A stretch of 64,000 bases of DNA from the NCBI GenBank assembly GCA_963669155.1, contig OZ022588.1:17977285-18041284 (forward strand), read 5' to 3'. The notes beneath the pieces were generated by a model. It was given only the letters and a program-made list of their open reading frames with translations, was not told the DNA's origin and did no database searches. The DNA is from Arbacia lixula (taxonomy: Eukaryota; Echinodermata; Echinoidea; Arbacioida; Arbaciidae). The translations under genes were made by a program, and so were the position numbers. Positions 15,411 through 64,000 of the stretch are shown here, piece by piece. Numbering within the stretch: position 1 is the first letter of the stretch; every line of letters starts with the position of its first letter.

Positions 15411-18244
15411 CTATTTGACATCTGGCTTGACTCTGTGGCGGGCCATCTCTTGGTAGTAGTCTTGTGTAGCGTCGACGCACTTGACCACGTCTGGGGTCAT
15501 TTGGTCACGTGGGACAGGCGGCTTCGGGGGTTTGAAGCACGTGCTGTTGAGCGCCATCTCATGTATTCCGCGTCGGCCGCTGTTCTTCTTGTGTATCGAG
15601 TAGAGGCTGCGCCAGCTCTCGCACACGTCCGGGGACGCGTCCCACTGGAGGAGGCTCTCGTTGTACGGTAGCCCTGCCGCAGCGCACAGTTTGGGCAGGA
15701 TGTCGGCGGGGTACATCGCCAGCTCGTCGCAGTCGACGAACACCGGGTTGGGGTCTAAGTTCTCGCTCACCACGTGCTTCCACAGGTCGTACTGACATTT
15801 ATATGTGTAGCCCTGCTGCATGAACGTCACATCCGTGGTTATGTCGAACGTTGCCTCGTCAGGTTGCTTAGACATATCGGTGCGAAAGGTCGGATTCTTT
15901 GAGAGCTGTTTGATCAGCAGATTCCGCCATGATGGAAACATGCACTCGGGCTTGCGGATGAGGAAGACGTGTCTGAAGTTAGACTCTTTGCAGGGCAGCA
16001 TGTCGTGGAAACCAGTAATGGAGAACGCCATATCCTTCACGACACACGACTGGCCGGCTGGTAATGAGTCTAGTTGTATCCTCGCACCGTCACGACTGCA
16101 TTGGGAAAGGAATGGAGAAACCCCACAAAAATAATATACACCGATTTAAAACAGTACTCTTGATAGGCAACTACGTTTTCACTCTCGAAGCAGAATATGA
16201 AGGCATATGAAGTATTATAGTACCACACTACCCCGCCAAGACTAAGTAAAAAAATATATAAAAGTTTATTAGTCGGGCATGTAATACGTACTCGTAAAAG
16301 TAAACTTGGTACATTATGCATGTAGATTCGTTATACATGTATAGTTTTGGTAGTAAGATTCGCATGCCAATATAAGTAGTCGTAAGCATGACTGCTATAT
16401 AGTAGCCACCGTTCTAGTATAGGCTGTAGGCTTCTTTGTTCTATACAGTCATCACAATCATCTAGGGCCCGTATTTTTTTTTACTGTCATTGGCCCAACA
16501 ATATGTGCCGACATTGGCCCAACATAATTTTTTGGTCATTGGTCCAACCAGGGAGGTGGGAGTCTCAACTGCCACCTCCCTGGTCCAACATGGTTTTTGG
16601 TCACTGGCCCAACATCATTTTTGCGGCATTGGCCCAACATCAAAATCTGACGTTGGCCTAACGTTAAAATGTATGCTGGCCCAACATCATTTTGCGACAT
16701 TGCCCCAACACCATTTTGCGACATCGGCCCAACATCATTATGCAAACAATGGCCCAACCATCAAAACGACATAATTCACGCAAGAGCTACAATTGATCGT
16801 ACGATTGATAGATTGACCGTACGACTGAATGTATTGACCGTACGACTGAATGTATTGATCGTACGATTGATATCGATCGTAATTTGTAATCGATATTTAA
16901 AAAAAGAAGATATTGATCGTGGTTTGTATGGATCAATCATAACTTATGCCATTGATTGCAAATTCATGCATAGGCTTGGACGTGCAAAAGAGAGCAATGA
17001 TGGTGTGTGATACAGCGAGTTGCAATAGATAGCAAACAATGCAATTGATCGCAAAGTTGCTATCGATAGCAACTCTTAGTGATACAGGACTCAGAAATCG
17101 CAAGTCCAACCCCCTATATCTAATGAACGTAGCTACGATGATTCGTATATCAAGCACAAGTCAATTTTTTTATGAGACGGGGTCTAGAATCTATAGATGG
17201 GCTAACCTAACTCTATCTGTTTAACGTGAACTCACGTGAAGAGCGAATTATCAATGTCGTCCGCGACCATAGCACTGGCGTCCATGCCAGCGGCCTCCAT
17301 TCGCTGTCGCACCTGCTCGTGTATCTTCTCCTGGTCGACATCCTTGAGTAACCGCGGGATGGTTATCCCCAAACCCTGCAATGTTCTTTCCGTCATGTCG
17401 GCCAGACAGTAAGGCTCAAACCACGTCTGTGTCAAGTCAAGAAAGGAAATAACTTCACCTTAATCGTATGCCATCTTGACTCTTGTAATAGCTTGATGTT
17501 GGTAGTCCGTCTTATCAAATACAAGATACAAGATATTTTATTCAGTCCAAAATCAAGGAAATTTGCTTTTCATCAGCACAATAACACAAAAGTATATAGC
17601 GATACTATAGACATAAATAATGAGTTAGAAAAACATGTCTAAACATGGTTGTAATTCGTCTGTGCAATTGTAAATTATGTACTCTATAATAATTAAAGAC
17701 TGAAAAATCATTAGCTGCGGAATTGGGGCATATTATTAGTTTCTTTCTCACTCTACTCCTGATGTAATAATATATATTAGATTTACTTTGTTCATGTTGT
17801 TTATTCGTCAATTTTAATACATTGTCCATGTTGTCATCTATACAAATGAACAAAGAGTATAACTTAGATAAAATACAGCAGCTCGGCACCTGTAGATGTC
17901 AGTACTTACATACACAAAATGGAGCTACACCATGGAAACCGGCCCAGTATGGACCACACCCAATTTTTTCATAATTGAAAATATGCTTCAGTCTCTAAGG
18001 ATCTTACGCGATTGTAGGTCATTATGTAGAGAGAACACACTTTTGTTTAAATCAACAGTTAACCTTTAAAAGAAAAAAAGTTTAAAAAATATGCCATTTC
18101 TTCTAATTGCCAGGATGCTCCAAGTTCACTACCATGACCACTAACCTGACAGTCTGGAAGAAAGCTCAAACACTTGAGCACGCATGTTGAGATCGACCGG
18201 GGCACGCCCCAGATAATGACGCGAAAAGGCTTGTTGTCTTCCAT
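15411..18244 (-). CDS. Sulfotransferase-like P-loop protein, 324 aa
   Basis: Three coding exons on the minus strand join in frame: 18244-18146, 17426-17236 and 16095-15411. The splice sites read TTTCTGCAG|, CAG|GTTAGT, GACACAG|, CAC|GTGAGT and AATGCAG|. The ATG lies 12 bases inside its exon, so a 5' UTR intron exists. RVIIWGVPRSISTCVLKCL at residues 9-26 fits the 5' phosphosulfate-binding loop of PAPS-dependent sulfotransferases, with Arg-Ser in place of the usual Lys-Ser. HVFLIRKPECMFPSWR at about 139-154 fits the 3'-phosphate loop. FEPY after residue 33 matches the W/FHEP segment of the same fold. There is no signal peptide or membrane segment, so a soluble protein is expected. The family includes proteins labelled branched-chain aminotransferase-like, whose substrate is unknown. 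Activity is inferred from the fold only. Confidence 0.75.
16490..16765 (+). repeat. Degenerate minisatellite of TTGGCCCAACATCATTTT units
   Basis: About eleven imperfect units of roughly 24 bases built on GGCCCAACA plus TTTTGCGACA, in the second intron of the sulfotransferase-like gene. It can be read through in both strands because the unit is near a multiple of three, but the translation is only a repeat. At 16547-16584 a 13-bp perfect hairpin (ACCAGGGAGGTGG and its complement) interrupts the array. Confidence 0.75.
16785..16880 (+). repeat. Short tandem repeat of CCGTACGACTGAATG type
   Basis: Three to four units of about 21 bases containing ATTGACCGTACGACTGAATG or the variant ATTGATCGTACGATTGATA, rich in ATTGAT and CGATCG words. 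Intronic. GATTG/ATCGATAGCAA words continue to about 17080. Confidence 0.6.
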
Positions 18245-19910: not shown

Positions 19911-20072
19911 TAGTAAACCGGTCTCTTGCACTTCTATTCGCGATAACCTAGAACCTAGACTATACATAGCGCGGCAGCATGCAATACATGACTCCACACC
20001 TATGAATACATCCGTATTCTGCAAGTGTGTTTGTATAACGATTTGTGAATCGAACTAGCCTAGGTACTAGGC

Positions 20073-20263
20073 TGTGAGGTGCATGGACATAACCCAGTCT
20101 GTTAACAACTATGTCTGGTAAAACAGACTATGCCCCAATCCCATCCTCACTCCTCCTAGAGGGGAAGAGAGAAGAAGCCAGAAGAGCTATGACGTCATTA
20201 GGGCATAGTCTGTGTTACCAGACATAGTTATTAACAGACAGGATTGTGTCCATGCACCTCACA
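20073..20263. mobile_element. MITE family B, copy 1
   Basis: 191 bp with inverted ends TGTGAGGTGCATGGACA and pairing arms that include CAGTCTGTTA and ACTATGTCTGGTAA. The asymmetric loop contains TCCTCCTAGAGGGGAAGAG. A second copy at 27065-27256 carries the loop in the opposite orientation. No coding sequence. Confidence 0.7.
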
Positions 20264-20746
20264 GCACAAGAGGTACTTACTTATTGCACAATAATGTAAT
20301 GTGGGGAACAGGCAAGAATATACTGGGTTCATATAAGAGAGAGAGAGCGAGAGGAAGAGAAGAAGATACTGGTGACCATGGTGGCGTGTAAACAAGGATG
20401 TTTAAGCACATGGAGTGCCAGCAGCCATTTAATTAATGCAGATTCATTGTACTCTCCTTCTAGTCACAAAAGAACGCTTTACAAAAAATTTATCTTTGAT
20501 CCCCGATGTTCGAATCCGCCGATTCTCTGGATGATTTTTCCCTGGATTTGATATATAAACAAAATCGGATGCGCAGAAGAATTTGGGGAAATATCCTCAC
20601 CCCATATGCTTGCGAAGTTGTGACATGTAATACCTACGATGCATCTATACAGATTCAATCGAGGAATAGTGTTACAATATGGCAAAATGGTTCTAAACGT
20701 GATATCAAGTGGCAGTATAAAGGTTTCAATTTCACGATGTTCCGCA

Positions 20747-21013
20747 TCATACCTGCTTAAAACAAGGCATTAGCAATATTGTGTCTCGCCCACTTGCGAA
20801 AATAACCATAATACAAGAATATGAATGCAACACTTGTTTCCTGGTAAACTGCTTCCCACATTTGTAGCAAATATTACATGAATGTTTCTGGAGGTTCGCT
20901 CTCAACTGGAATGACTTTCCACATCTATTACATGTATACGCCATGTTGCCATAAAATAAATGGGCTCCTTTGTTGCCTAAGAGGTAGTGCCTGCCTGTAA
21001 AACCTGTGAAAAA
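20747..21013 (-). pseudogene. C2HC/C2H2 zinc-finger exon fragment
   Basis: Read on the minus strand after a good acceptor (GTTTGTTTCAG|) at 21014. YTCNRCGKSFQLRANLQKHS has the C-x2-C and helix pattern of a C2H2 finger, although its second zinc ligand pair reads H-x-C. The next unit CYKCGKQFTRK ends in HSYSC. Two degenerate fingers in tandem suggest a terminal exon of a zinc-finger gene. The frame runs out of the insertion into the family A repeat, where it meets its stop at 20747, so the natural C-terminus is missing. Best read as a captured or truncated fragment; a functioning gene is not excluded. Confidence 0.45.
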
Positions 21014-22121
21014 CTGAAACAAACAAATAAGCAACTTTAAACAGACAACATCAAAATCAGGTGCAAAATAGTGACTTTGAATAAATTTGCATAAATGTGC
21101 ATGAGTAATGTTTGCCTAATTCTACATCAGTAATGCTCACACATGCTCACACAATTCTGTGCACAAGTTAGGAAGCCTTCACCAAGAGTCTTGCAAGTAA
21201 ACTTTAATGTATGACCTCAAATGACCTTTGACCTTATCCTGTGACCTCCAACAGCACCATAACATGAAGGTACCCCCAGTGCATCTATGACCCAAGTTAG
21301 GTTGTAATCCAAGCAACCTATGTGAAGTTATTTGTCAAAAGAGAGTCTTGCAGGTAAACTTTAACGTATGACCTTAAATGACCTTTGACCTTATCCTGTG
21401 ACCTCCAACGGCACCATAACATGAAGGTACCCCCAGTGCATCTATGACCCAAGTTAGGTTGTAATCCAAGCAACCCATGTTAAGTTATTTGTCAAAAGAG
21501 AGTCTTGCAGGTAAGCTTTAACGTATGACCTCAAATGACCTTTGACCTTATCCTGTGACCTCCAACGGCACCATAACATGAAGGTACCCTCAGTGCATCT
21601 ATGACCCAAGTTAGGTTGTAATCCAAGCAACCCATGTGAAGTTATTTGTCAAAAGAGAGTCTTGCAGGTAAACTTTAACGTATGACCTCAAATGACCTTT
21701 GACCTTATCCTGTGACCTCCAACGGTACCATAACATGAAGGTACCCCCAGTGCATCTATGACCCAAGTTAGGTTGTAATCCAAGCAACCTATGTGAAGTT
21801 ATTTGTCAAAAGAGAGTCTTGCAGGTAAACTTTAACATAGAAAAAGAGAGTCTTGCACATACTCTTTAATATATGACCTCAAATGACCTTTGACATCATC
21901 ACATGACCTCTGACAACACCATAACATGAAGATACCCCTAGTGCTTCTATCAACCAAGTGTGGCTGCCATTGCTGTAACAGTTGCCAAGTTATGGATCAT
22001 AAGAGAGTCTTGCAGGTAAACTTTAACATTTGTGACGGACGACGGACGACGGACGACGGACGGACGACGGACGGACGCCATTTGGATCCCTTAGTCTCGC
22101 CTTCACCTCCGGTGGGCGAGA
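20761..22121. mobile_element. 1.36-kb insertion carrying a zinc-finger fragment and a minisatellite
   Basis: Its limits are defined by comparison with the uninterrupted family A copy near 19185. TGTCTCGCCCAC at 20782-20793 is exactly complementary to 22112-22123, so the insert is bounded, or nearly bounded, by 12-bp inverted repeats. Inside are zinc-finger coding sequence (minus strand, up to 21013), a 157-bp tandem array, a GACGGACGACGG stretch and a terminal hairpin. It has the make-up of a non-autonomous transposon. No transposase is seen. Confidence 0.6.
21185..22035 (+). repeat. 157-bp minisatellite with DR1-type half-sites
   Basis: Units start GAGAGTCTTGCAGGTAAAC near 21185, 21343, 21500, 21657 and 21814. 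A 34-bp truncated unit and a more diverged unit (21848-22003) follow. The units are highly similar, pointing to recent amplification. Each holds TGACCTTTGACC on the plus strand, i.e. AGGTCA-x-AGGTCA-type direct half-sites on the minus strand, plus further TGACCT words. Confidence 0.85.
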
Positions 22122-22123: not shown

Positions 22124-22727
22124 AAAATTGCATGAAACGTTACTTTCAGACATTTCCTTTCAGACAAGTAACGCGAAAAACGTGCCCAGCCGCGCCCAAG
22201 CTAGTATTTCCATCTCAAAAGGATCAAATTTCGTATTCGCTTGTCCTTATCAGGGATGTGTTATTGAAGGATAGGAAGCAACTTTCTTTCTTTGAACCCA
22301 TGTGCCAAGCCGCTGAAAAGTTATGGCGTTCTCAACAGGTGCTGTTCAGGTGTTTGAACAATTATGAACCTGATTGTGTGGCAACGGTTTCTCAGAGAGA
22401 ACAAAAGAAATGTACAGTCTCACTTCGCTTGTCCCGCTCTGTTAATGACATTAATACTTCCATGAGCACAACAGGTATCAGCAAACACAAATAAACAAGT
22501 TTTTCAAGTAAAATATCTCTGCTTCACGCCAACACACACAAACGCCGTTAATGATAACACACAGCTTAATATACCATTTTGAGGGTGGTTGAATCTCCCA
22601 AATGCACAAGTTGTCGGAAAGTGAAGAAATTGGTCAATTTTGTAATTAATACAAATAGCTTATAATTATGTCCGGTTTTTAATGATTCCTCAATACTTTT
22701 CGAAACAAAAGCAGAGTATTAGGATCT

Positions 22728-25720
22728 GGGTCAATCCACGTGAAATCAACCAATTTTCAGACAATTTGTAACCCAACCCCCTTCAATTTTCTTCAAACTC
22801 GCACCAAATGTTCCCCCAAGTGTCTGACGGAAGATTTTGAAATATTTTGCCCCAAGGTCAAATGGTTGCTAAGATACGGCCTCCCTTAGCAGCCAATGCA
22901 TGATCGAACAACTGAGTTTAAATAAAATTTGCTATTTTTGATTGACCGCTGCAGCCAAGTTAGATGAGTTACATTGCTCATTTCCTGAAAATTAAAAGAA
23001 CTTTATAGTCTTAACATGCACAATATATTCTGGTGCCGATCGGACCACCCATTCTTACGCATGACGTCAAGGAAAATGGTGTTAAGCGTCAATGGCAATG
23101 TGTTCGGGTGCATGTTTGGAAGCTGATAACTTTAAAACTCAATTAGTTTAGAACCCACTATTTTGCAGATATATAGCCTTTCACTTGCTCTACCAACCTT
23201 CCAAAAATTGATCAAAAAACATTCATCATTTTCTCGTAGAGCGCCCTCAAAGTTTGATTTTTTTAAAAAGTTGCCAAGTTCAATGTCTCAAATCACCACT
23301 CGTCCCATCGAGGATTGACACCAATTTTGGTGTGTTGATAGACTTTTACCTATATTTTTATAGGATACCTAAACACTTTTGTGACCTAAATGTTAACTAG
23401 CAGATTTAAGCATTTGAAAATGGTTGTAAACACCCCAAAATCTATGTAAAATGACACATTGGAGTTTAAGCACATTTCAAATTGTGATAACTCAGAGATG
23501 AAAAGCCAAAATACAATGATATCTTCTGTGATAATAGTCTGTTATTAGTACTAAAAGAATATACATCACAAATACTTTTGTTTTTTTGTCAATGACCTAA
23601 AAAAGCGCCTGAAAATCACAAGAAGCAATAAATCAATCAATTTTTCGTAACCATGGTTACCACAATGGTGTTAACGTGTGTTTACATTGATTTCTAATTG
23701 TGTGTCATTTCAGTACTAATGGTGACTTTAAGCTGATAACTGCATATCATGTTTTAATATATATTTTCTTTTAGCTTCACATAGTATCTTAAGTCATATT
23801 CATATCCATTGACCTTGACACCATTCTGAAAGAGCTGTATAAGCCTAAAAATTAGCATATTCTCAACACCAGTGAGCTTTACATCACATTTCAAAATCAT
23901 TTTCCTCTCGGACAGAATGCCTGATCATGTCGATATATGCAGTATTGGTAGTCTGGAATTAGTATTTAGAGGATCTAGTATTATTTGATTTGCCTAAAAT
24001 GACAATGAACTTGAAAATACACCTGGAAATCATAACAAAAGCAACAATCATTCAAATTTCCAATAATAATAGAATATGGAAACCGGCTTTGAGTTGTGTG
24101 CCATTTTAATATGAATACTGACTTAACTTTGATAATTGCAAATCTGTTGCCCTTTTTGTTCCATTTTGAGCTGCAAATAATATTTAAAGTAAAAATAACA
24201 TTGACCTTGACATAATTGTAAGATTAGTCGTAAATGTCTCCAACTGAGCATAAGTCACAACATACATGAGTTTTACACTTTTATTTGTAGCTTAAAATGG
24301 TAGAAAATGGAACATGATTAACAATTATCGGCTTTAAATTCACTATTGATATTTAAATGATACAATTTTATTTTATTGAAAGTCTTTGTAAAATGCCTTA
24401 CAATAGAACTATTGATTTTTTGTGATTTTCAGCTGTATATTCAAGGTCATTGTTATGTTTGATGAATTAAATAATACTAGATACTCTAAACACTTATCAA
24501 AGTATACCACCACTGCAAATATCGACATGATCAGGCATTCTGTCCAAGAGAAAAAATGATTTTGAAATATGATGTAAAGCTCACCAGTGTTGATAAAATG
24601 CTAAATTTAAGGCTTTTACAGCTCTTTCAGAATGATGTCAAGGTCAATACATATGAACATGACTTAAGATATTATGTGTAGCTAAAAGAAAATATATATT
24701 AAAGCATGATATGCAGTTATCAGCTTAAAGTCACCATTAGTACTGAAATGACACACAATTAGAAATCTATGTAAACACACATTAACACCATTATGGTAAC
24801 CATGGTTACAGAAAGTTGACTGATTTATTGTTTCTTGTGATTTTCAGGCGCTTTTTTAAGGTCATTGACAAAAAAACAAAAGTATTTGTGATATATATTC
24901 TTTAAGTACTAATAACAGACTGTTATCACAGAAGATATCATTGTATTTTGGCTTTTCATCTCTGAGTTATCACAATTTGAAATGTGCTTAAACTCCAATG
25001 TGTCATTTTACATAGATTTTGGGGTGTTTACAACCATTTTCAAATGCTTAAATCTGCTATTTAACATTTAGGTCACAAAAGTGTTTAGGTATCCTATAAA
25101 AATATAGGTAAAAGTCTATCAACACACCAAAATTGGTGTCAATCCTCGATGGGACGAGTGGTGATTTGAGACATTGAACTTGGCAACTTTTTAAAAAAAT
25201 CAAACTTTGAGGGCGCTCTACGAGAAAATGATGAATGTTTTTTGATCAATTTTTGGAAGGTTGGTAGAGCAAGTAAAAGGCTATATATCTGCAAAATAGT
25301 GGGTTCTAAACTAATTGAGTTTTAAAGTTATCAGCTTCCAAACATGCACCCGAACACATTGCCATTGACGCTTAACACCATTTTCCTTGACGTCATGCGT
25401 AAGAATGGGTGGTCCGATCGGCACCAGAATATATTGTGCATGTTAAGACTATAAAGTTCTTTTGATTTTCAGGAAATGAGCAATGTAACTCATCTAACTT
25501 GGCTGCAGCGGCCAATCAAAAATAGCAAATTTTATTTAAACTCAGTTGTTCGATCACGCATTGGTTGCTAAGGGAGGCCGTATCTTAGCAACCATTTGAC
25601 CTTGGGGCAAAATATTTCAAAATCTTCCGTCGGACACTTGGGGGAACATTTGGTGCGAGTTTGAAGAAAATTGAAGGGGGTCGGGTTAACACCATTGGTT
25701 GATTTCACGTGGATTGACCC
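22728..25720. mobile_element. 3.0-kb giant palindrome (foldback element)
   Basis: The left end GGGTCAATCCACGTGAAATC is the exact complement of the right end. The complement can be followed by eye through both arms to a centre near 24225. The outer 1.15 kb is about 95% or more similar between arms; the inner 300 bp per arm is clearly more diverged. ATCT abuts both outer ends and may be a 4-bp target duplication. There is no coding frame and hardly any unpaired loop. Sea urchins have a described class of foldback transposons with long inverted repeats (TU elements); whether this is related is unknown. Confidence 0.85.
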
Positions 25721-25935
25721 ATCTGTCATTAACTTCCTCACAGTTTGCAAACGAATTTGTCAAAAACAAAACGTCTACAGACAAATGGGAAATTAAAGAA
25801 GACAAAGCATTGTCACGATAATGGATTCCTTGGACATTCATGAGCACGCTTTAGATACAGATGTTTGAATGTATTATGCTCGAGTTTCTACTCCTTTCTA
25901 TAACACTTCCCTGGTAGGTGTGTTATTTTACAGCG

Positions 25936-26383
25936 TGCCCATGTCAACAATAGAAGCAGGTGCACATGGTGGAATGTTCTTTCACTACACAGAGCTGAAT
26001 CGCTGTTGTCGTACCTGCATTTTAACGTGGTCCACCAATATCTATGGAATTTCCATTTTACTCTCTGCTCATGCGCACATTGCAACTATGAATTCGCTTA
26101 TAGGATTGCATAATCTGTGTTACGTTACCAGACTGTGTTGTGGCCATGCACGCATGCACCTTACAGCCTAGTACCTAGGTTATTTTTAAAAATCTACGCA
26201 TACCCATGTTTTGTATGAGCATATTCACTAACTTACTATACAAAATATGGCTGTACAAAATATTGTGGCATTCTTGGCTCTGCATAAGAATCCGCCAGCT
26301 AAACGTATACGGGCTGATAGATTATCGTAGATCGCGCCATCAATCGTTCGACTTGTTGCGCTCACTGAATCCTACATTACGTA
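25936..26383 (+). repeat. Long inverted repeat, left arm
   Basis: Matches the complement of 29801-30130 (from GTGCCCAT through the CAGAGCTGAATCGCTG segment to the TATACGGGCTGAT segment) and of 28482-28553 (the remaining 70 bp with ATCGTTCGACTTGTT). It contains a half copy of MITE family B around 26140-26172. Confidence 0.65.
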
Positions 26384-27006: not shown

Positions 27007-27064
27007 GCTCTTCTGTCCACACTCACACGTCAATAGCGAGTTCGCTTCTAGCCTCAGTACTAGG

Positions 27065-27256
27065 CTGTGAGGTGCATGGACACAATCCTGTCTGTTAAGA
27101 ACTATGTCTGGTAACACAGACTACGCCCTAATGACGTCTTAGCTCCTCTGGCTTCTTCTCTCTTCCCCTCTAGGAGGAGTGAGGATGGGATTGGGGCATA
27201 GTCTGTCTTACTAGACATAGTTGTCAACAGACTGGGTTGTGTCCATGCACCTCACA
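27065..27256. mobile_element. MITE family B, copy 2
   Basis: Same inverted ends and arms as 20073-20263, with the central loop inverted relative to that copy. The right flank (27257-27372 and 27632-27678) is the complement of 19912-20072, so element and flank were duplicated together. The flank is interrupted by about 260 bp that includes the 70-bp direct repeat. Confidence 0.7.
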
Positions 27257-27679
27257 GTCTAGTATTTAGGCTAGTTCGCTTCACAAATCGTTAGACAAAT
27301 ACGGATGTATTTATAGTGGTTGAGTCATGTATTGCATGCTGCCGCGCTATGTATAGTCTAGGTTCTAGATGTATTTTATCAGCCCGCATTGGTACACAGC
27401 AGCGCGCGACGAAACTCAGCGATCGCGCGATTACTCGATGAATCCTTATCGTATAATGATATATGATAATGCTTGGGGTAATACTCTCTGTTATGCCACA
27501 TATTGCTCTACAGACATTTCACATATGTTCCATGAGTTATAGATTGTTTTGCTTGCATGTGTGTCTGATTAACGGAGAGAAAACGTTGGCCACATATTTT
27601 TGTATTTTTTATTTACAAGGTGGACAAACGGGTATTTCGAATAGAAGTGCAATAGACCGGTTTACTATACTGTAGTCAA

Positions 27680-28480: not shown

Positions 28481-28553
28481 CTACGTTGAGTAGGGTTCAG
28501 TGAGCGCAATGAACAAGTCGAACGATTGATGGCGCGATCTACGATAATCTATC

Positions 28554-29800
28554 ACAGTCACTGTTAGTGGGGAGATCAGTGATCACAGTCAATCGGCAGC
28601 GCTCGCTCGTTCTATAGAAATCGTGAGCGTTTTATTTTGTTGCACCTAGATTACGAAGGAATTTGACATGCTCGCGAGATCTTTTGCTGGTGTCTTCTGT
28701 AAGCATACTGATCAGAAATTTTTTAGACAGGGATTGAGATTATATGTTTCTTAATAAATATTTTCATTTTTTTTTTCGAAATCTGCAAAGGAGTTTTTAT
28801 GTTATTTGCTTTCAAAAACAGGCCTCAATTTTTTTTTTGAAATATGTAAGCTCTCAGACCTTGCTGGATCCTGACCCTTCTATGGATTTCACGGCAACGA
28901 CAGTTACGGCTCTAAAAAGCCAATACTTCAGCGGAGATTTTGATTCCAATATTGTTTGGGCTCAAAAAGAAAACATTTATGCTATTCGTCTTCAAAGTGA
29001 CGCGAGATTTCAGAAATCGTACGGACTTCGCAACCGATATATATGTAAGCTCTCAGACTTTGCTGGATCCTGACCCTTCTACAAATTGGACGGCAACACC
29101 AGTTACACCTTTGGAAAGCCAGTACTCTAGCGGAGAATTTGATTCCAGTTTTGTTTAGGCTCGAAAATAACACATTTGTGCAATTCGTCTTCAAAGTGAC
29201 GCGAATTTTCAGAAATCATACGGACTTCGCAAACGATATTCGTCCGCAGGCAGCAGAAAACACAGGATTTTATTTTCAGTGAGGTAGTCGTGACCTTCAT
29301 TAGTATTTCGTTATTATCGTGGACTATGATTGGCTGGGTAGGATCGTTCACAACTTCGTCATATCTCGCTCATTTTGGATTTGAACATGGTTGATGTTTT
29401 GCTGGATCCTGACCCTTCTATGGGGGAGGTTGAAAAATAATGGTATCTCCATAAAGTGCAATAAATTCCGCTTCAGATGACCTCTAAATGTTAGGGGCTC
29501 AAAAGCGATTGACATTAGAATATAGAGTTTATTCTTCTTTTTTTTTCATTAGAACCACATATTTATCTCGAATTTACAATATTTTTCTGCCTATTTTAAT
29601 GAAATGTTTTATCACAGTTGGTAAATTTCGACCTCCAACATACAGTTACAAAAGAAAGTGTACGAAAATATGGTATATTCATGAAGATATCGCAGTTTGA
29701 AAAGGAGACGTTTTCCGCGGTTCTAGAGGTCAAGTGAAGGTCCCGACTACCTCGCTGAAAATAAAATAAGCGTATTTTCTGGTTCCTGCCATTTGACTGT
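28554..29800. mobile_element. 1.25-kb insertion with short inverted ends and ATC duplication
   Basis: The insert begins ACAGTCA and ends TGACTGT, exact complements. ATC lies immediately outside both ends (28551-28553 and 29801-29803) but once only at the empty site in the other arm. The target duplication and inverted ends are what a DNA transposon leaves; the superfamily cannot be named. It contains two 197-bp direct repeats and no transposase. Confidence 0.6.
28845..29238 (+). repeat. 197-bp tandem duplication
   Basis: Two adjacent units starting TATGTAAGCTCTCAGAC and containing GCTGGATCCTGACCCTTCTA, AGCGGAGA and TCGTCTTCAAAGTGACGCGA. A third partial hit (GCTGGATCCTGACCCTTCTA) lies at 29400-29420. 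Unit 1 can be translated (SQTLLDPDPS, then SQYFSGDFDS) and unit 2 keeps most of that frame before a stop, so a decayed coding origin is possible. Confidence 0.7.
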
Positions 29801-30130
29801 ATCAGCCCGTATATGCAGAGCCAAGAATGCCACAATATTTTGTATAGTAAGTTAGTAAATATACGCATACGAAACATGGGTATGCGTAGATTTAAAAAAA
29901 TAAGCTAGGTACTAGGCTGTGAGGTGCATGCATAAATGGACACAACACAGTCTGGTAACGTAACACAGATTATGCAATCTTATAAGCGAATTCATAGTTG
30001 CAATGTGTGCATGAGCAGAGAGTAAAATGGAAATTCTATAGATAGTGGCGGACCACGTTAAAATACAGGTACGACAACAGCGATTCAGCTCTGAGAAGGT
30101 AGTGAAAGAACATTCCACCATGGGCACGCC

Positions 30131-45500: not shown

Positions 45501-48094
45501 TATATTTGGATTTGTAAGACGCATATTACCTATTTCATTCATATAGGTTTTCTTTTGCAGTTGTAAACACTGAATGTATGGAATGCATTTAATGTGAACA
45601 TATTGAACACTGTGTGACTGGATGAATGTATTGTTTTCATCAAAGTTATGTTGCATCACACTTTTTGGTATCATATGTAGAATTTTATATACAAAAATCA
45701 GTATCAAGTTCAAGTTTGCTTTCATTTTTTAAAAAAAAATCAAATTGATTCGAGTTAAGAATCACATTTATGGTACACTCTCACCTTTTTTTTTTTTTTA
45801 TTAAGTTTGACATTTTTACAGGAAGGCTTGCCATAGGGGATCTCTCTTAATTATGTTATATCGGCACTGCATTCATTGCCCTTGTGACAGTTCCAGCAAC
45901 AATCCACATCATGATTTTCTTTACATGACAGAATATTGTGATCTGGATTTTTGAAGAAAACTTCCTGATATGCTGACACGGTACAGGAAATTGGTAGAAT
46001 AGTAATGCGAAATAAACATTATTTTGTTCCTAAGGGAATGGCTTAACTTGTTGCAAGCAAGAGTTGTTTGGTTGCACAATAAATGTGCACAATTCCAAAA
46101 GAGCGGCATTTTATCTGGCACACAGTTGGGGTTAGACTCGATCTGTTACAGGAAAACTAGTTACTTTTTTGTTGCTTTCAAAATGAAATGTTAGTCCAAG
46201 AGTAAGTTCCCAGTGTATTAAAGAAAATTCACTGTTTTAATAGTTTTTATAGCAATCACATTCCACTTTTACTGTAAATGATAGCAAAAAACATTTTTGG
46301 AGGTAGATTTATTTGAAGAAAAGTGTAATATTACTTGCTCCATCAGGTAGATTAGAACCCCTAACTTTGTTACGGCCATGTCGTGAAGTTGTCTACCTGC
46401 TCCGCTGCTGTTGCAGAGATATTACAATGTGAAATCTGTTTTATTTTGTCTGTGATGTAGTAATTTATATATTGGTATCAAGAGTAATTGCAGTATTAAC
46501 CAAAAGACTGACCAGATAGTGAAGATGTTGTATTCAACAGTGGGAATACTACAAGTTAGACTGGCAATGTGACAAACATTTTTTTTGTGTGAGGAGTTGT
46601 TGAACAGAAAGAAAAGAGTGGAAGTGAGAGCTATTAATTGGGTATTTTTTTCTATATGGTAATAAAATGTAATCTTATGTTGGTTATAATGCAGTTGTGT
46701 TCCTTGGTAAAAACCTGTACTAGATATATATTTCCTTGTTAACATTTTTACATGTAGAATAAAACATACAGCATTTACATAACTTATCTAGGTCGTTTGC
46801 GTGGGTTTGGAAAACTTTTTTTTGTCAGTGATAATTATTCTCCCATCCATACCCATGTAAACAGTTGTGGATTCAAAGTGTATAGCAAGCAATTTATGTG
46901 TATGAAATACATTTATTGAATGGTATTGAAGATGATTCTGTTGAATAATGACAATTAAAATATGATGAGAAACACGTCACAATGTGCAAGTTGGCTAATC
47001 ATGTGTACATTATGTTAATAAGGGATCATTCCTTTTATGTTTTCAGTGTCTCATTACCATTTTCAGTATTGAAAACTTAAAACTACACATCAATGAACTG
47101 ACCACCAGAAAATGTGTATGATTGTGTATGTGTTTATTTGTGTTTTTCTTCTGTATGTGTGTTGTATATATGTGTGGGCATGTATGCATTGCGTATGTGC
47201 TCGCTGTGTAAGTTTGTGTGTGAGTATGTATGTACGTGTGTTTCTTCTACATGTCTGTTGTGTATGTTTGTGTGTGCATACATGCACAATAGGCTCAGTA
47301 AGTGCTGGTTTACAAAATTTCTAAGTTTCTAAAAAGCAGCATTAGGTTAGATGAAGTAGAAAGTAACTGGCATTTCACCTTTTATGGATACAACTAACCA
47401 AAAAAAAAAAAAAAAAAAAAAGGGCTATTGGGGGTTGTGGAACAAATATCATATGATTTACCAAATCTACCGTGTGAAATAGTTACAACATACAGTAGAA
47501 ACTGAGAACAGACAGTAGGCAATAAGTGTTGCTGTTAATTAAGACGGAGGGAAATAAATGAGCTGTATTATTACAATGACCATCCACGTACATATTGACT
47601 GTGTTCAGTTGACCTCATATTGAAAATGTCAGATGTTCTTGACACAATATTTCACCAATGGTTTTCCTGCATCCTTCAGAGGTAAATCAATCATTTTGGT
47701 GCTTCTATGAAACATTTGATAGAGAGCTGCACTAACTGAGGTCAAGTTTGACATCTTTCCTATGGTTAGCGTTGAAGCTGTGCCATAGCAGACGACGGAA
47801 ATCGCGTGAGACTGAGTTTAGTACTAAAACTAATCTAATTATTGAATTTCACATTTTTTTCATAACAAAACAGTATAAAATACATTTGAAAATAATTATG
47901 ATAAAATTTTTTATGACAAAATATGATTATTCCACAAGAAAAAATATGAAATAAAAATATAATAGCTAGGCCATAAACAATTATTTGAACGAGCCTGCCA
48001 CTTAGCTACCACTGACGCTAATTGAACTCCTGTGCTATAATCGTCCTGACAAATAACTAAAATTTGGACTCAAAGAACAATCTAATTTGCAAAA
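42590..48094. other. Rab14 3' UTR and intergenic region
   Basis: No coding feature supported. Plus-strand AATAAA hexamers at 46011, 46078 and 46758 are candidate Rab14 poly(A) signals and would give a 3' UTR of 3.4-4.2 kb, long but not unusual for this gene. A degenerate TGTGTATG tract lies at 47106-47282 and an A20 run at 47401-47420. A GATGAT run is at 43961-43984. A 145-codon minus frame at 43392-43829 has no domain. Confidence 0.35.
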
Positions 48095-51000
48095 ATGGCA
48101 GTTGATGGTGAAGCTGCTCAATCTGTTTCGTCGGCTCAGGGTTCGAGACGATCAGCAAAACGCCTCAATATCGTCGTCCAATGCGCCGCAAATGGAGATA
48201 CGAGTCGGCTGCTCGAGTGCTTTGCTAACGAAGAAGACCCCTACCACGACCGCGTAGAGGGTCAGCTCAACTCCGTAGATGAGGACGGGCGGTCTCCAGT
48301 GGAAATCGCAGTCACCGAAAACCAGATTGAAATGCTGAAACTGTTGCAGGAGAAAGGATCCGACTTGAATACAAGGAATGTGAACTCAGGCCGGTCTCCC
48401 CTCGATATGGCGTGCATTCTTGGGCGGACGGAAGCCTTACGAGAGCTGCTGGAAAGGGGAGCTGATGTTGACTTTGCTACGAAAAGAGGTGAATACTGCA
48501 TGATAGAGATGAAATGATAAAATGGACAGATTTGTTGATAGTTCCCTTGTCTGACATGAAGTTATGAAGAAGTTAAAACTTGGTATAGATATTGGATATT
48601 TCATATCCACCATCAAATCACATCACTAGCTGTTCATACATTCAAACAGGAAATGAAATATGCAATATTATACTCAAATATGTGACTAATATTTAATGAT
48701 TTTGATATTATTTGAGAAGAGGTTAATTTTCTTTGATGTTTTTAATGTTAAATTAAAATTTATCAGCTGCAGAACCTAATGAGACATCAACTGGGAACAA
48801 TTTGTTCATGTTTGAACAAGTACATGTACTCAAATATTTAAGGCCATGTTACAAGTAGAAACCTCAAAATGTAGACAAATAGGGTCTACACTTACTACTA
48901 AGTCAATATTTTTTCTCCGCAAAATCCAGGCTACACAGCTCTCCACCATGCAGCAGCCTGGGGACGGAAAGATTGCTTAAAAATCCTGGTCAGTCATGGA
49001 GCTAGTTTTGGTATCAAGACCAGTCATGGAGAGCGTGCTCGTGATACAGCTCTGAGATACAAGCATGATGACTGCTCCTACTACCTCGACTGGTCTGGTG
49101 AGTAGGATTTGTTGTTGGATGATGCTATACTTCATCAAAGAGCAATTTTCCCTTTTTCATGTTTTGTGGCCCAAGCGTCACAAAAAACCCTTATTTTAAC
49201 ACGCTGTTCAGTATGCAGGTACACACTCAAATGTATGCATGTCAGATGGAGTTTGAATTCCCCTGCTGTTGGGAATTTAGGGTGTATTTGCAATTGAATA
49301 GGATGAAATATACATGCTGGCTCTACATTCCCTTAGATGTTACATTGACATGCCGCCAGATATGCCAGTCAGTGGGCCTGGCTGCCGACTTGGTGCACTT
49401 TTTGTCCAGAGGCACGTTACCACTGCACACCCCTTTGCTGACTCTCTGGAATCGAGTCGACACTCTGAACAATGTTTTCTTGTGTGATATTGATCTATTC
49501 TCTCTAAATAAGGACCTTTTTTCACCAATCACTAAAATATATCTTTCTCTCTCTAAACAATTTTCTTGTTAGTACTTTTATCATGAAGTGGACCCTGTAT
49601 GTCGTAGATGTTTGTGTTCCACTCTTCTTCTTCTTCGTCTTTCTCATCTTCACCTCCCACTTTCTTCCTCTCCCTTCCACATCCTTCTGATCCTTCTTTT
49701 CATTCTCTTTCTTTCTCTATCATCTTCTCATATTCCTATTATTCTCCTATACAGGCCAACATTCTTCACTTAAGGTACAAAAAAAACAAAATATACACAC
49801 ATATTAAACATTGAGGGGAATACAACATCCACAAATACGCTAGTGGAACAACGGGCTTTTAGTCTTTCGTATAGGTTCTGTTATCTGTGTTCTCCCCATT
49901 GTGTTTTCTCTGTAGAAGCAAGACGTGGCCTGGTGTCTATTCTAACTGAGACCAAGGAGACTATTGAGGACCCCCAGAAGCTACAGGGAAGACTGGCCAA
50001 GGATGAGAAGGTAAGAAAGTAAAAGAAACAAACAGTGTGATGAATACATCGTTGGCTCACAGCAATTCAATTCCTGAAACACAAACAACCCCCCCCCCCC
50101 CCCCCCCCCTGTTAGAAATAACCCCTGTGAAACTTTGTTCATGGGATGTAATGCACAGCTTAGTTCAGTGTGCTTGTTTTGGGACATCTGGCCTTAAAGG
50201 TATCCCATACAGATTTTTTTTAATTCAATATTTTTTGTGAATACAAACCATAATTAACAAGGAAGCTGTAATAAAATCTGGGAATAAACAAACTTATTTT
50301 TTTCTTGCATCTGATTGTAAATGTTTTCAATGTTTTCAATCATTTGATATAGAGGTATGAAAAATATAGCCTACACAAATATTTTTTTTGTTGCCTAACC
50401 ACCCACCATTTTTTCTGTGATTTCTGTTATACTTGATCATCACTGCTACACACATATACATGTGCATGTAGATGATGAGTCTGAATGACTACCGGTACCC
50501 ACAATATTTGAATTATTTTTTTTTTTGCCTGATCATCAGTGTTAAATGTATGTGTGAGTAGATGATGAGTCTAAACATGATTTTTGTTTTGCCTGATCAT
50601 TACTGTGACATGTATGTACGTTTAGATGACGAGTCTGAACATGATTTTTTTTCCCTGCCTGATCATCACTGCTACATGTATGTGTGCATAGATGACGAGT
50701 CTGAACGTGTGCATCGGTAAGCAGGAGTGGCTGGATGCTAACCCGAACGCAGCCATCGAGGACTTCAAGAAGCAGGAAGAAGATTTCAGGACCAGCTTGG
50801 AGGCTATCCTCATCAAACTCTCTGAACCACGTAAGGAACATTACCTCGCTGCATAAAGGGAAAGTCCACCCAGAAGTTAAATTTGATTTAATCAAAGCAG
50901 AAGAATGAAATTAACATATTAGTGACAATTTGGCGTAAATCCGTTGAAGGATAAGAACACTATGACTTTTTAAAGCCTTGATTTTGTGACGCCATAATAT

Positions 51001-57615: not shown

Positions 57616-64000
<6,385 letters not shown>

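Follow-up and report, generated by a model that had tools for sequence, protein, structure and literature searches.

A 3-kb palindromic transposon family in Arbacia lixula whose arms exchange sequence within single copies

The palindrome and its surroundings

The window analysed here, a 64,000-nucleotide stretch of Arbacia lixula contig OZ022588.1, contains a 2993-bp palindrome at positions 22728-25720, delimited by local alignment of its two halves. The left arm (22728-24194, forward strand) and the right arm (24271-25720, reverse strand) make up 2917 of the 2993 bp and are separated by only 76 bp (24195-24270), in agreement with the first-pass annotation of this DNA, which had described a giant 3-kb palindrome with almost no spacer. 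The aligned span is 22727-24194 and 24271-25721. Its outermost pair consists of the T and the A of two ATCT copies that directly flank the palindrome on both sides (22724-22727 and 25721-25724), as that annotation had also recorded, and the element proper is therefore 22728-25720. Each arm begins with a perfect 27-bp terminal inverted repeat (22728-22754 on the forward strand, beginning with GGGTCAATCC, and 25694-25720 on the reverse strand). The repeat is followed inwards by a subterminal block, which comprises 14 bases at the left end (22755-22768, forward strand) versus 5 bases at the right end (25689-25693, reverse strand).

Read along the left arm from the outside in 100-bp steps, the identity between the arms is 93, 98, 98, 100, 99, 100, 99, and 100%, and then, in the next steps towards the centre, 96, 93, 93, 90, 78, 80, and 79%. 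Identity thus stands at 98-100% over 22827-23526 and at 78-80% in the inner 270 bp, and the gradient noted earlier, high outside and lower towards the centre, is confirmed with one added detail. The outermost 100 bp are lower again (93%), because a 9-bp length difference and a few mismatches lie just inside the 27-bp repeat. A repeat search returned three inverted blocks of 836, 306, and 140 nt at 99, 92, and 81%. Within 22728-25720 there is no tandem array at score 150, and the only direct repeat is a two-copy one of 37 nt. The element was also said to code for nothing, and we found nothing to contradict this: the longest stop-to-stop frame lying wholly inside it has 80 amino acids, and six of its longer frames, those that only overlap it included, have no Pfam match at E ≤ 1.

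Other repeats and a few frames surround the element in the window. A second palindrome at 58935-59307 has 186-bp arms, 87% complementary, with 1 nt between them. One inverted pair (20027-20265 and 27064-27302, 94% complementary) encloses the element, and another lies to its right (25985-26248 and 29835-30098, 92% complementary). A 43-bp inverted pair at 26315-26357 and 28512-28554 is 100% complementary, its members being 2154 bp apart. About 0.9 kb upstream of the element, a tandem array (21185-21836) comprises 4.2 copies of a 157-bp unit with 97% matches. The frames include ankyrin repeats at 48086-48514 (E 4e-17), a weak sulfotransferase match at 15414-16145, and a C2H2 zinc finger at 20750-21115.

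A dispersed family with 4-bp target duplications

The genome that we searched comprises 607 Mb in 590 contigs. In the search with one arm that the first-pass annotation had proposed, the left arm gave 79 matches from 40 scored places out of 320 candidates, a palindrome being able to give two matches each. The central part (query 24100-24330) has 74 candidate places; 40 of them, the window included, were scored, and all 40 matched. Allowing up to 2 mismatches, the genome contains 224 occurrences of the terminal 24-mer and 0 of its reversed control.

Forty places were fetched with their flanks and more were added later, giving 38 copies with both ends readable; L018, L025, L043, L044, L045, and L048 have one readable end only and stand outside the 38. 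Immediately outside the GGGTCAATCC ends, a 4-bp target duplication is exact in 35 of the 38 two-ended copies and deviates by one base in the remaining three. The duplication is mostly ANNT, with A at its first position in 30 and T at its fourth in 30 of the 35 exact cases, and it differs between copies at dispersed places. A comparison of the flanks gave 173 partial matches, a number that includes those between the two flanks of one copy; judged from the matches listed, we read them as other repeats. Five derivatives of 1178-2416 bp (L042, L046, L047, L051, and L053) are devoid of the centre and keep both ends and the duplication. Two further copies, L085 and L090, resemble lone arms but have a rightly oriented centre 1.3 and 1.7 kb, respectively, further than expected, so the apparent lone-arm copies are in part interrupted ones.

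The family thus combines a 27-bp terminal inverted repeat with a duplication of fixed length, which defines a cut-and-paste DNA transposon, and its long inverted repeats form most of the element, which defines a foldback element. The palindrome in the window is one insertion of a non-coding, non-autonomous, foldback-type DNA transposon family whose member is itself a 3-kb palindrome. A foldback transposon had been suggested from the long ends, and the target duplications uphold that suggestion.

Further relatives match the arms at about 80-98% over their most similar stretches. Some of them are again palindromic, and they share ends in which C replaces G at base 15. Five of these relatives have the same left flank: the composite of L083, L079, and L084 (G000:C18:13595724-13602423), L055, L080, L081, and L082. 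The common flank is complete at about 990 bp in four of them and breaks off after about 800 bp or less in L079, which indicates that one insertion was multiplied inside a larger repeat. In C18 the unit of this larger repeat stands in tandem with a period near 1.6 kb. Its frames we take to resemble a zinc-finger protein with a tyrosine-recombinase-like C-terminal end; Pfam returned nothing for a 337-aa part of the frame. Two other loci, L088 and L089 (G000:C9:4249391 and 4283493), represent the same insertion with its flank, 34 kb apart and 99.5% alike over 1300 bp, and are a duplication that carried the element along. The 500-bp pieces fetched further in from these two are not a second arm. 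A sequence of 517-521 bp, about 95% alike between its occurrences, is inserted once in the palindrome of L033 (2467-2983) and twice in L050 (2163-2679 and 2926-3446), one of the three in opposite orientation, and is perhaps a second transposon that prefers these palindromes.

A relative that has these ends and codes for a transposase was not found among the ends that we read inwards over 0.5-2 kb. All 11 exact-match ends without a listed partner, and likewise all 25 ends of a second set, mostly of the C variant, begin with arm sequence in the 0.5-2 kb covered; the ends listed cover 100 of 224 and 100 of 196. By visual comparison, none of the 150 listed DDE_Tnp_4 places falls within the ends listed. 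Beyond the arms of L055 there is a frame resembling a tyrosine recombinase, which we read as a nested host repeat, and just inside the arm of L086 a 109-aa frame, gag-like in appearance, which is probably an unrelated insertion. A literature search with the terminal 10-mers returned no transposon-titled paper among the matches listed, and searches on foldback elements in starfish, on superfamilies with 4-bp duplications, and on Patiria repeats returned nothing naming this family. Target duplications of 4 bp are known from Sola, Academ, Ginger, and Chapaev. The family, with its ANNT duplications, may belong to an undescribed transposon superfamily.

Exchange of sequence between the arms of a copy

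A consensus was obtained from 30 aligned full-length copies. One of these, L041, was included in the wrong orientation; its centre aligned badly and it is excluded from all counts over 29 copies. Divergence from the consensus is 1.2-3.2% among the 29 copies. Between positions 100 and 1100 the two consensus arms are identical; their similarity is 96% at 1100-1200, 81% at 1200-1300, and 70-77% further in, the divergence setting in beyond about 1150. Since a consensus of 30 copies already has identical outer and diverged inner arms, the identity gradient is ancestral. In the window copy, the homogenised outer arms (consensus about 50-1150) correspond to 22777-23877 on the forward strand and 24579-25680 on the reverse strand, and the diverged inner arms to 23878-24194 (forward) and 24271-24578 (reverse).

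When the arms of the 29 copies are compared in 100-bp bins, a copy's left arm on average resembles its own right arm more than those of other copies in each bin as far as 1200, and from there inwards no such difference is seen. The variants found in exactly two of the 58 arms are distributed in a corresponding manner. In the outer arms (50-1150), 91 of 149 such variants form a mirror pair within the same copy, where 1.75% would be expected; the remainder links arms of different copies (19 left-left, 21 right-right, and 18 left-right). In the inner arms (1150-1490), none of 33 two-arm variants is mirrored, and the pairs, all between copies, are 6 left-left, 15 right-right, and 12 left-right. 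The 91 mirrored pairs are spread over 23 of the 29 copies, the other six having no copy-specific mirrored variant. Mirrored departures from the symmetric consensus occur in each of the 29 copies, at 2-22 per copy versus an expected 0.09-0.65. The window copy has 17 of them versus 0.5 expected, and nine, seen in no other copy, lie at 109-588, inside its most homogenised stretch.

Phylogenetic trees separate the two parts of the arms in the same way. In a FastTree tree of the outer arms, both arms are sisters in 18 of 29 copies (17 with support of at least 0.79, and L010 with 0.04) and 11 copies are without sister arms. The inner-arm tree has no sister arms in any of the 29 copies, and all 58 arms split into left versus right (support 0.76). 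The nearest neighbour is a copy's own other arm for 29 of 58 outer arms versus 0 of 58 inner ones. The mirrored variants and the sister arms, both confined to the outer arms, support arm-to-arm gene conversion, which had been offered as the alternative to a foldback transposon; both readings hold.

The ends and the centres provide a further record of exchange. In a set of 33 copies, all combine a left-type with a right-type end, as defined by the subterminal blocks, and none is like-ended. The phase of the ends relative to the centre is the usual one in 28 of these copies and the opposite one in five (L035-L038 and L052). The simplest origin of an inverted centre is a crossover between the inverted arms, and a single event may underlie all five. 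Judged by its centre, the window copy clusters (support 0.89) with a group of 12 copies that carry C at base 15 of the right end; its own base 15 is G at both ends, a hint of exchange at the very end that a single mutation explains equally well. Together, the mirrored variants, the sister arms, the inverted centres, and the absence of like-ended copies among the 33 show that the arms of one copy exchange sequence, and that the centre and the subterminal block of 5-14 bp escape. Because the mirrored variants are copy-specific, they also show that exchange continued in separate lineages. The subterminal blocks are never alike while the neighbouring kilobase is, and they are probably kept unlike by a transposase that needs one end of each type.

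Several other origins of the palindrome and of its mirrored changes were considered. Long reads with missed adapters can produce palindromes, and such a chimera could in principle have entered the assembly, but the same palindrome with the same asymmetric centre recurs at dozens of scattered sites, and the 4-bp duplications around it differ. Because the left arm, the centre, and the terminal 24-mer all have copies elsewhere in the genome, chance and assembly error are both excluded; all 40 scored places carry the centre, and for the family an artefact has a practically negligible probability. A recent birth of the palindrome, in which the arms are identical simply because they are young and the centre diverged for another reason, would fit outer consensus arms that are identical over 1 kb. 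It is very improbable, given that the inner arms differ by about 19-30%, with left and right types in all 29 copies, and that relatives already equipped with arms differ from them by about 13% (L056) and 17% (L054); diverged inner arms and arm-bearing relatives make the palindrome older than its outer arms look. It is scarcely conceivable that the mirrored changes are independent parallel mutations at sites of the same context. Mirrored sites do share their neighbours, and hot spots such as CpG could hit both arms, but CpG transitions account for only 3 of the 91 mirrored pairs. Moreover, both arms changed to different bases at 7 sites in total over the 29 copies, as against the 2-22 same-base mirrored changes per copy, and left-right pairs number 18 between copies versus 91 within a copy, none being mirrored in the inner arms.

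Another possibility is that the arms are reset only during transposition, for example by foldback synthesis or by gap repair after excision, and do nothing but diverge once inserted. The copy-specific mirrored variants would then be explained as changes in the donor, and the copies with 3-4 arm differences (L038 and L036) would be the youngest. As a proxy of lineage age we used the inner private changes, 'private' referring to the 29 copies compared, in a family that numbers at least 40. Private one-arm changes show a weak upward trend with this proxy (rho 0.32, p 0.09), of the kind that plain divergence would give. However, arm differences show no dependence on inner private substitutions (rho -0.07), and L038 has 16 inner private changes but only 3 arm differences; mirrored changes correlate with the inner private substitutions (rho 0.41, p 0.03). 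The arm differences are also more clustered than a null taken from the remaining copies predicts (combined p 4e-5), significantly so (p<0.05) in 6 of the 29 single copies and not in the other 23, which again speaks against a reset confined to transposition. Lastly, of the 58 cases in which two copies have a one-arm variant in common, 40 place it on the same arm, against an expectation of 50% (p 0.005; inverted-centre copies not turned), which implies that unmirrored differences survive transposition rather than being wiped out by it. Clustering, the age proxy, and the shared one-arm variants point to conversion in tracts rather than to a reset of the whole arm with every move, and support an exchange that acts on tracts shorter than the arm. 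A reset confined to transposition is thus unlikely, though it retains a real share of probability.

Proposed mechanism and known systems

Based on the above data, the whole is probably best explained by a non-autonomous palindromic transposon whose arms are homogenised by recombination within the insertion. A transposase supplied in trans by another element would cut at the 27-bp ends. Within a single insertion, homologous recombination would then homogenise the two inverted arms, with pairing by a hairpin, a cruciform, or the sister chromatid leading to conversion tracts and occasional crossovers. Exchange would fade towards the centre, where the tip of the fold could not pair and where diverged arms would stop recombining. 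Copies with ends of one type only would be dead and hence not seen. The exchange may take place after insertion or in the donor lineage; that recombination is ongoing after insertion, in each insertion on its own and in a family of a possibly undescribed superfamily, is a tentative proposal that falls slightly short of being probable.

Conversion between palindrome arms is known best from a few sex-chromosome palindromes, whose inverted arms are kept alike by arm-to-arm conversion and whose spacers are unalike. The present family differs from these in that it is a small, repeated, mobile element, in which the process is replicated at many loci. With the same palindrome at dozens of sites, the rate of exchange, the tract length, the homology threshold, and the ratio of conversion to crossover would become measurable with replication. 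The family also suggests how foldback transposons could keep their arms from decaying. If exchange does occur after insertion, each insertion is an independent replicate and the family is an animal-genome assay of palindrome gene conversion, in which tract lengths, the divergence limit, and, from the centre inversions, the crossover rate can be read, with the inner arms as a built-in control; selection for one end of each type would then keep the subterminal blocks unlike.

Of the described transposons, the closest in behaviour are foldback-type elements, especially Galileo of Drosophila (PMC3573991; PMC2775673). Galileo has long inverted repeats, the longest being those of non-autonomous copies without transposase; the repeats of one copy are 98-100% alike, and recombination or conversion between them has been proposed (PMC3573991). 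Long inverted repeats that are similar within a copy are thus common to Galileo and the present family. The same paper describes Galileo as a member of the P superfamily by its transposase, with internally repetitive repeats and 7-bp duplications, and reports copies with two repeats of different groups, whose 7-bp flanks, however, are unlike (PMC3573991). Our family departs from this in its 4-bp duplication (35 of 38 exact) instead of the 7-bp duplication of the P superfamily as given there, and the window element is without the tandem-repetitive arms that this paper attributes to Galileo and to Drosophila Foldback (PMC3573991).

Kolobok and KolobokP, the latter reported from echinoderms among other phyla, are characterised in PMC9587614 by 5'-RR ... 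YY-3' termini and by a 4-bp target duplication (3-5 bp in KolobokP). The GG...CC ends of the present family fit the RR...YY rule of that description, and its 4-bp duplication has the length given there (PMC9587614). The TTAA target duplication of Kolobok, however, is found in 0 of the 35 exact duplications, and the long terminal direct repeats with their own short inverted repeats, which that description gives for KolobokP, are absent, the arms of our family being inverted and not direct.

This kind of element is already known, and the family described here is an unusually clear example of it. Beyond a similarity of the repeats such as Galileo also displays, exchange is shown here by mirrored variants together with an internal negative control; the strength of the family lies in this evidence of arm exchange and in the many loci at which it is replicated.
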